Source: Bacteroidales bacterium
Lineage (GTDB): Bacteria; Bacteroidota; Bacteroidia; Bacteroidales; VadinHA17
Length of the DNA stretch: 46,919 bases
Reading direction: 5' to 3'
Assembly (NCBI GenBank): GCA_015712185.1
Contig: JADDYF010000459.1
Coordinates: forward strand, 1 to 46,919
Part shown: in pieces, positions 18,456 through 31,389 of the stretch
Position numbering within the stretch: the stretch's first letter is position 1
Layout: the number at the start of each line of letters is the position of its first letter
Position numbers and translations under genes: made by a program
Notes under the pieces: model-generated
The model's database searches: none
What the model was told of the DNA's origin: nothing
The model's input: the letters and a program-made list of their open reading frames with translations, nothing else

Positions 18456-18494
18456 AAAAAAGGCTGACTGCAGTATGGCGGATCAGCTTTTTTT
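18456..18494 (+). terminator. Rho-independent terminator of the first susCD operon
   Basis: AAAAAAGGCTGA ctgcagtatggcgga TCAGCTTTTTTT: stem plus U-tract 17 bp after the susD stop. Confidence 0.8.
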
Positions 18495-18497
18495 GTT

Positions 18498-18569
18498 GTC
18501 TTATGGTCTCAGGGTCTGATGGTCTTATGGTCTGATGGTCTTATGGTCATATGGTCTTAGGGTCTGAGG
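18498..18569 (+). repeat. Left 8-bp tandem array, 9 units of GTCTNAKG
   Basis: GTCTTATG GTCTCAGG GTCTGATG GTCTTATG GTCTGATG GTCTTATG GTCATATG GTCTTAGG GTCTGAGG. Confidence 0.95.
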
Positions 18570-18574
18570 ATGGA

Positions 18575-18970
18575 TTATTTATTACCTTTCAGATATTTCA
18601 TAAGGCTTCCGGTTCCTTTTATTAGTCTTTGACTTCTTTCCCTTCGGGCTGCAGCCTTTTCAGTTTCTATATAGTGCAAATCCTCAGCGATATAATACAT
18701 GTTTTTCACTTCACCTGCAGATCCTCTCGAAAAATTCAGAAACCGCCGGAATTCAGGATCACTCTGACGGCAAAATCCCTCAGAGATATTATTCATGATA
18801 GAGATTCCTGCGCTGGTTATCTGGTTTCTAAAAATAAAATCCCGGCAATCTCTGAAATCAGAATAAATAAGATTCACTAACTCTCTGGCCAATAACCAGA
18901 TCTCTAATTCTTCAAAATTCTTAACAGTTCCCATTTTAGCACGATTTAAATGTTTATATAAATGCAGCAT
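18575..18970 (-). CDS. S23/IVP-like four-helix-bundle protein
   Basis: FEELEIWLLARELVNLIYSDFRDCRDFIFRNQITSAGISIMNNISEGFCRQSDPEFRRFLNFSRGSAGEVKNMYYIAEDLHYI matches the 23S rRNA-intervening-sequence protein pattern. Likely start ATG at 18934 (MGTVKNFEEL). Confidence 0.9.
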   Translation of the reverse strand: MLHLYKHLNRAKMGTVKNFEELEIWLLARELVNLIYSDFRDCRDFIFRNQITSAGISIMNNISEGFCRQSDPEFRRFLNFSRGSAGEVKNMYYIAEDLHYIETEKAAARRERSQRLIKGTGSLMKYLKGNK

Positions 18971-18984
18971 TCTTATTCTAAAAT

Positions 18985-19048
18985 CCTCAGACCCTCGGAC
19001 CCTCAGACCCTCAGACCCTGAGACCCTGAGACCCTGAGACCCTCAGAC
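18985..19048 (-). repeat. Right 8-bp tandem array, 8 units, inverted relative to 18498-18569
   Basis: CCTCAGAC CCTCGGAC CCTCAGAC CCTCAGAC CCTGAGAC CCTGAGAC CCTGAGAC CCTCAGAC; reverse complement is GTCTSAGG-like units. Confidence 0.95.
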
Positions 19049-31218: not shown

Positions 31219-31389
31219 CTCGTAGCTCGCAAGATCACAAAAAAATCCCCTCATGGGAGGGGGGGCTTCCGGCTACCGGCTACCGAATACCGAATACCGG
31301 CGACCTGTTCGTAGCGTATAGCTCGTAGCTCATAGTCTGATTTTATTTAATATTGAATCAGCCCTGAGCCCTGATCCCTGATCCCTGAG
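31207..31389. repeat. Mosaic of heptad tandem arrays filling the argF / DUF456 convergent intergenic gap
   Basis: CGTAGGT TATAGCT CGTAGCT (31207-31227); (CCGGCTA)2(CCGAATA)2CCGGCGA (31269-31303); TAGCGTA TAGCTCG TAGCTCA (31312-31332); CCCTGAG (CCCTGAT)2 CCCTGAG (31362-31389). Confidence 0.9.
31238..31263 (-). terminator. Rho-independent terminator, probably of the DUF456/PUR transcript
   Basis: On - strand: CCCCTCCCATGAGGGGATTTTTTT; stem CCCCTC/GAGGGG and U-tract. Confidence 0.7.

Follow-up and report, generated by a model that had tools for sequence, protein, structure and literature searches.

The window, the whole 46,919-nucleotide stretch of Bacteroidales DNA that was analysed (JADDYF010000459.1), carries between a susD gene and an NlpC/P60 peptidase gene a small gene of the IVP/S23 family, enclosed by inverted arrays of an 8-bp unit. 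The features of this element and its borders are listed here, with the arms named in the sense of the gene.

18456–18494, no strand: terminator-like hairpin behind susD that forms the opposite border of the element, placed by sequence comparison; it adjoins the element in genome G081 too and lies close after NlpC in empty genomes
18498–18569, minus strand: 3′ arm, nine units, GTCTNAKG on the plus strand and AGACCATA on the gene strand; TRF period 8, score 94; inverted match to the 5′ arm
18559–18571, no strand: innermost 13 bp of the left arm, by sequence a perfect inverted repeat with 18983–18995
18575–18934, minus strand: IVP/S23 four-helix-bundle gene (PF05635, E 1.1e-25; TIGR02436), its ORF open to 18970
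18935–18947, minus strand: leader AAATCGTGCTAAA directly 5′ of the start codon, with high column-wise conservation across 25 orthologues
18983–18995, no strand: innermost 13 bp of the right arm, by sequence a perfect inverted repeat with 18559–18571
18985–19048, minus strand: 5′ arm, GTCTGAGG x 8, CCTCAGAC on the plus strand; TRF period 8, score 100; contains the NlpC stop codon
19043–19804, minus strand: neighbouring NlpC/P60 peptidase gene (PF00877), its 3′ end abutted by the element; empty and filled junctions occur in relatives

The layout described in the original prediction, an S23/IVP ORF between nine and eight inverted 8-bp units whose innermost 13 bp form a perfect inverted repeat, was confirmed by TRF, profile search and inverted alignment. 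TRF returned period-8 arrays at 18498–18565 (8.5 copies, consensus GTCTTATG) and 18985–19048 (8.0 copies), and the inverted alignment of the two arms scored 67, where mispaired flanks have their 99th percentile at 35.6. The NlpC stop codon (19043–19045) lies inside the right array. Folding of the single strand, a check proposed together with the prediction, yielded a stem 5 s.d. below shuffles, as is expected of any long inverted repeat.

The ORF had also been described as filling the loop. At the 5′ side, the likely start codon is the ATG at 18934–18932, 36 nt inside the ORF as first read, rather than the one at 18970, because AAATCGTGCTAAA-ATGGGAAC is conserved in ~25 orthologues and residues 1–9 of the longer ORF are of low confidence in the structural model. 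The gene would therefore fall slightly short of filling the loop on that side. The leader includes TCGTGC, which resembles the unit consensus of the window's IVP subfamily. The idea that the leader holds a copy of the unit serving as operator in all subfamilies was considered and rejected, as such a copy is seen only in this one (own unit 0.716, other unit 0.699, p 0.19). Elsewhere in the window, a second, gene-less stretch of 7-bp arrays lies between the ends of two genes (31219–31389), with a GGCTACC-type array at 31264–31299 and an AGCCCTG/ATCCCTG array at 31360–31388.

PF05635 is the sole domain match in the window ORF, and no catalytic domain was found in the IVP. Its predicted structure (pLDDT 91.7) retrieved XCC0516 (2GSC) first in Foldseek, followed by BT_0352 (2RLD) and then Avd (4DWL; TM 0.69/0.83, 7% identity), which bears out the proposed fold relationship to Avd. 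PF05635 proteins are common and structures have been available for about 20 years; to our knowledge, they have no known function. A search of the window's genome (G000, 89.7% complete) for reverse transcriptase (PF00078) gave no match, and dependence of the element on a diversity-generating retroelement was rejected on this ground.

The gene and its arms are one discrete unit that ends at the arms. Between loci L004 and L052, of the 7-bp GTTGCTG clade, homology spans arm to arm and the flanks are unrelated. Two filled/empty pairs were also compared: a clean 66-bp gene-less array pair distinguishes G066 from the empty site in G067, with flanks 83% identical, and a 53-bp gene-less array pair makes a similar difference between G006 and G027. 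Both pairs show clean ends and no plain target-site duplication. The free-standing, intergenic, IVS-like design that had been proposed is thus borne out, with the arms as its ends. Comparison of NlpC junctions with and without the element, also suggested at that time, revealed filled, inverted, gene-less and clean states. Within the genus, the IVP gene at this junction has either the window's orientation or, as in G025, G081 and G064, the reverse one. G034 holds a gene-less inverted pair of the window-type unit, further genomes hold arrays only, and clean junctions, G001 among them, have a terminator-like hairpin almost immediately behind the NlpC stop. Some near-identical copies reflect vertical descent (L057/L060/L073 and L127/L135).

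The arms abut stop codons, with 88 stop against 26 start codons on the upstream side, and where the upstream-side neighbour has its 3′ end facing the element, the median gap between its stop codon and the arm is 5.5 nt. Neighbouring genes are varied, presence is patchy, and gene-less and broken copies occur. Some copies lie inside essential-looking operons, in an sdhA-IVP-sdhB-like order by ORF reading in Polaribacter (L089, 437–3628) and in an accB-IVP-accC-like order by reading of translated flanks in G376 (L343). On plasmid pNe_5 of Nostoc edaphicum, an IVP element on the opposite strand lies between annotated ribonucleotide reductase beta and alpha subunit genes (L308), and the order guanylate kinase, IVP, nicotinate-nucleotide adenylyltransferase is in print for Flavobacterium columnare (PMC5524665). 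Conserved neighbourhoods were once suspected of being 23S rRNA; this was ruled out when no rRNA was found, L089 being the sdhA-sdhB-like operon. For a location in a 23S rRNA gene, there was no Rfam match in the window or 20 IVP loci, and no 23S motifs were present in 226 loci.

The same design is found well beyond this locus. The other IVP genes of the window's genome, which the original prediction had singled out for inspection, bring the total to four, all armed and each with a different unit (CAAGACG, GTCTNAKG, TGATGAG and GTTGCTG). Among the window's relatives, the family is present in 51 of 60 genomes, with up to 18 copies. A strict arm test required a periodicity score above the 99% null and an inverted match above threshold. 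In these relatives 55 of 77 IVP genes passed it; the figures were 39 of 81 for named genomes spanning many phyla, 9 of 11 for viral contigs and 18 of 27 for a 399-genome Pseudomonadota draw; roughly 30–50% of IVP genes fail it, mostly outside the window's relatives. Arrays do not flank unrelated genes equally often, an outcome that would have told against the prediction: among non-IVP genes of IVP-carrying genomes of the genus, 1 of 437 controls passed. Nostoc edaphicum pNe_5 carries an IVP gene between AGTAGGG x8 and TCCCTAC x5, and Nostoc and Calothrix plasmids have IVP genes flanked by AGTAGGG, CAGGAGT or AGGGTGT arms. A clean transposition was considered for a pair of IVP copies carried by Nostoc PCC 7120 plasmids and rejected, as their common segment also holds transposase sequence. 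Among the viral contigs (L166, L165), one holds several CGTTCAA/ACGTTGA arrays together with repeated IVP elements. The repeat-armed IVP design recurs across many bacterial phyla, with the repeat differing by copy, and the window feature is one copy of a widespread element family of ~0.5 kb, an IVP gene between convergent arrays of 6–9-bp units.

The arms follow recognizable rules. The null was exceeded by 141 elements, with a best period of 7 in 89 of them, 8 in 37, 9 in 10 and 6 in 3, whereas the spread of periods in shuffled flanks is flat. Mapped onto the tree of IVP proteins, period needs 24 changes; 1000 shuffles gave a mean of 44.8 and a minimum of 39. Pairs of IVP proteins closer than 0.5 have a common period in 97% of cases, while their unit identity is 75%; the unit follows the IVP tree more weakly than the period does. 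Period and core motif tend to be retained within an IVP clade, the motif being RGTCNTGC-like at 8 or 9 bp in the clade of the window IVP. The window subfamily (25 loci, 62–79% identical) has variants of RGTCNTGC(A) in both arms; some loci have AATCGTGC in both, further loci have GGTT in both, and others have 9-bp units in both. True arm pairs of this subfamily score 62.1 against 35.9 for mispaired arms, the best of 5000 permutations reaching 55.6. The two arms of an element thus change together. Polarity is fixed, with the G-rich strand of the arms pointing inward; of 116 5′ arms, 105 are G-rich when read on the gene strand.

Arrays without a gene also occur where IVP genes occur, and they outnumber them. 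In sampled parts of 12 genomes, noncoding 6–9-bp arrays number 1.7–2.0 per 100 kb where there are one or two IVP genes and 4.8–15.9 where there are four or more, and none was found in 455 kb of six IVP-less genomes, of which one belongs to the same genus and most come from other families. Arrays of 10–13 bp are near zero in all genomes sampled. The window-family unit reaches 234 matches per genome against 0–1 for a reversed-pattern control, these being overlapping matches in which long arrays weigh more; the window's own genome has a single match to the exact pattern. Its association with the presence of a subfamily IVP as such is modest (p 0.016). The unit is commoner where the resident IVP has 8-bp GTC-type arms (median 18 versus 4, p 0.002, 13 genomes; p 0.0004 without G063 and G086), a grouping chosen after the arms were seen. 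G060 and G061, both incomplete, have dispersed unit arrays and no detected IVP, and G007 has many 8-bp arrays, yet its family IVP has 9-bp arms. Around the IVP gene of L020 (900–2600, G030) lie about seven gene-less 9-bp palindromic array pairs in tandem (GTTGAAAGG / CTCCTTCAA), and at L001 (73–161), not far from another IVP element of its genome, a 9-bp inverted pair lacking a gene (AAAGTGCCT / ACTCTAGGC) encloses a loop of <30 nt.

We lean towards an IVS-like family of selfish elements in which the IVP would recognize the repeat unit and perhaps act in trans on gene-less array pairs. The elements may be selfish repeats in the style of IVS and REPIN. The IVP pentamer, an Avd-like scaffold, would recognize the unit in DNA or RNA and could hold both convergent arrays together. 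Since the IVP has no catalytic domain, cutting or copying would have to come from host enzymes. Replication slippage, recombination and perhaps RNase III acting on RNA might keep the arms matched, and could enable the spread or inversion both of the element and of array pairs lacking a gene. A position behind stop codons would render the copies nearly harmless.

An element acting at the level of RNA is the strongest competing account, albeit an unlikely one. Here the arms would pair in the transcript, RNase III would excise the hairpin as in 23S rRNA IVS, the IVP would bind the stem RNA, and insertion into operons would be tolerated since the transcript is cut or bridged. The arms do form a very stable stem, copies lie inside the sdhA-sdhB-like and accB-accC-like pairs, and Avd, whose fold the IVP shares, is part of an RNA-protein complex. 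RNase III cuts the Coxiella 23S IVS, in which 2–3 tandem GACAGAT heptamers precede the S23p ORF (PMC4990558). Against this account, G.U pairs in the stems show no excess over A.C mismatches (205 versus 244); nothing therefore marks RNA pairing as a selected property, and the sequence shared by the arms need not be an RNA-pairing constraint. In addition, the two arms mirror each other only weakly in the order of their unit variants (mean z 0.65), and the window copy is oriented opposite to its orthologues at this site. The RNA processing and binding of the protein to its own RNA stem, as originally envisaged, thus find no support.

A second alternative puts the arrays first, as microsatellite-like products of host slippage at hairpins into which IVP genes insert or by which they are captured, the protein having no role in making them. 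The surplus of gene-less arrays over IVP genes suits this idea, as does polymerase slippage, to which heptamer overrepresentation is ascribed in work cited in PMC4679880 and PMC4692102. We regard it as improbable given the empty 455 kb of the IVP-less genomes, the way the IVP tree is tracked by period and, less closely, by unit, the four different units in one genome and the inverted placement around the gene. Arrays kept by selection at each locus as operators or as terminator or anti-terminator sites of a host-beneficial regulatory protein are more improbable still, as the unit-like TCGTGC in the conserved leader of the window subfamily and the nearness of arms to stop codons are offset by a leader match that is not general and by the variable neighbours, patchy presence and gene-less and broken copies.

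The preferred reading, a selfish element whose IVP recognizes its unit, links the IVP family with the short repeat arrays strewn through these genomes. The link of IVP clade to repeat period and core offers a direct hypothesis for PF05635, namely unit recognition. Were the IVP to act in trans, repeats would be spread by a system that has no enzyme of its own and that would also give rise to inversions and to 3′-end variation in operons. Three separate puzzles may have a common origin: the 23S rRNA IVS, the heptamers found in Xanthomonas and cyanobacteria, and the short Bacteroidota arrays. A bolder generalization, which we hold as tentative and somewhat doubtful, is that IVPs are sequence-specific repeat-recognizing factors that create, maintain and mobilize short tandem arrays in trans. 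They would then define an unrecognized class of selfish repeats without a transposase or reverse transcriptase of their own, accounting for the heptamers of Xanthomonas, Nostoc and Bacteroidota, with the 23S IVS as a special case. No paper linking IVP to arrays was found among the open-access papers searched, and priority for this link is therefore not assured.

The heptamer repeats of Xanthomonas and Nostoc resemble IVP arms, which are likewise G-rich and convergent, and differ from the window's element, whose own period is 8. The available portions of Rehm et al. 2015 (PMC4692102) report 186 and 183 arrays of GGGAATC / GGGGA(C/T)T type, of no known cause, in two Xanthomonas genomes, with 70–75 convergent inverted pairs per genome that are intergenic and close behind the upstream gene; they focus on G-quadruplexes and name no associated protein. 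In our set, the IVP of G376, 64% identical to X. campestris XCC0516, has GGGATTC / AATCCCC arms, and the same genome has dispersed GGGANTC arrays: the pattern GGGANTCGGGANTCGGGA has 261 matches there, many of them in one long array, and none in four other genomes. A GGGAATC array in G376 (C1, 326875–327564 and beyond) extends over at least ~690 bp, some 98 units. The TAACTGA heptamers of Beggiatoaceae, Cyanobacteria and Bacteroidetes are also dispersed intergenic arrays, patchy over overlapping phyla and of no known mechanism, and differ in that those of Beggiatoaceae lie mostly before start codons (PMC4679880).

Close counterparts are the 23S rRNA IVS of Leptospira and Coxiella, which have the same protein family, a small ORF in an inverted-repeat loop and a similar size. 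The window's element has both an S23/IVP ORF in the loop (PF05635 1.1e-25, fold 2GSC) and complementary stem ends. In contrast to the IVS, window-type elements lie outside rRNA, their arms are arrays of 6–9-bp units, and they have dispersed gene-less copies, with several different units per genome. With Avd of diversity-generating retroelements, the window IVP shares its fold, whereas no reverse transcriptase was found in its genome. In REPIN/RAYT systems, a protein gene is flanked by a repeat that has many gene-less palindromic copies elsewhere, and the RAYT is a tyrosine transposase. The window ORF, with PF05635 only, has no Y1 tyrosine transposase and the arms of IVP elements are tandem arrays; as in REPIN/RAYT, the IVP gene is flanked by a repeat that is dispersed in the genomes of relatives with the same subfamily.
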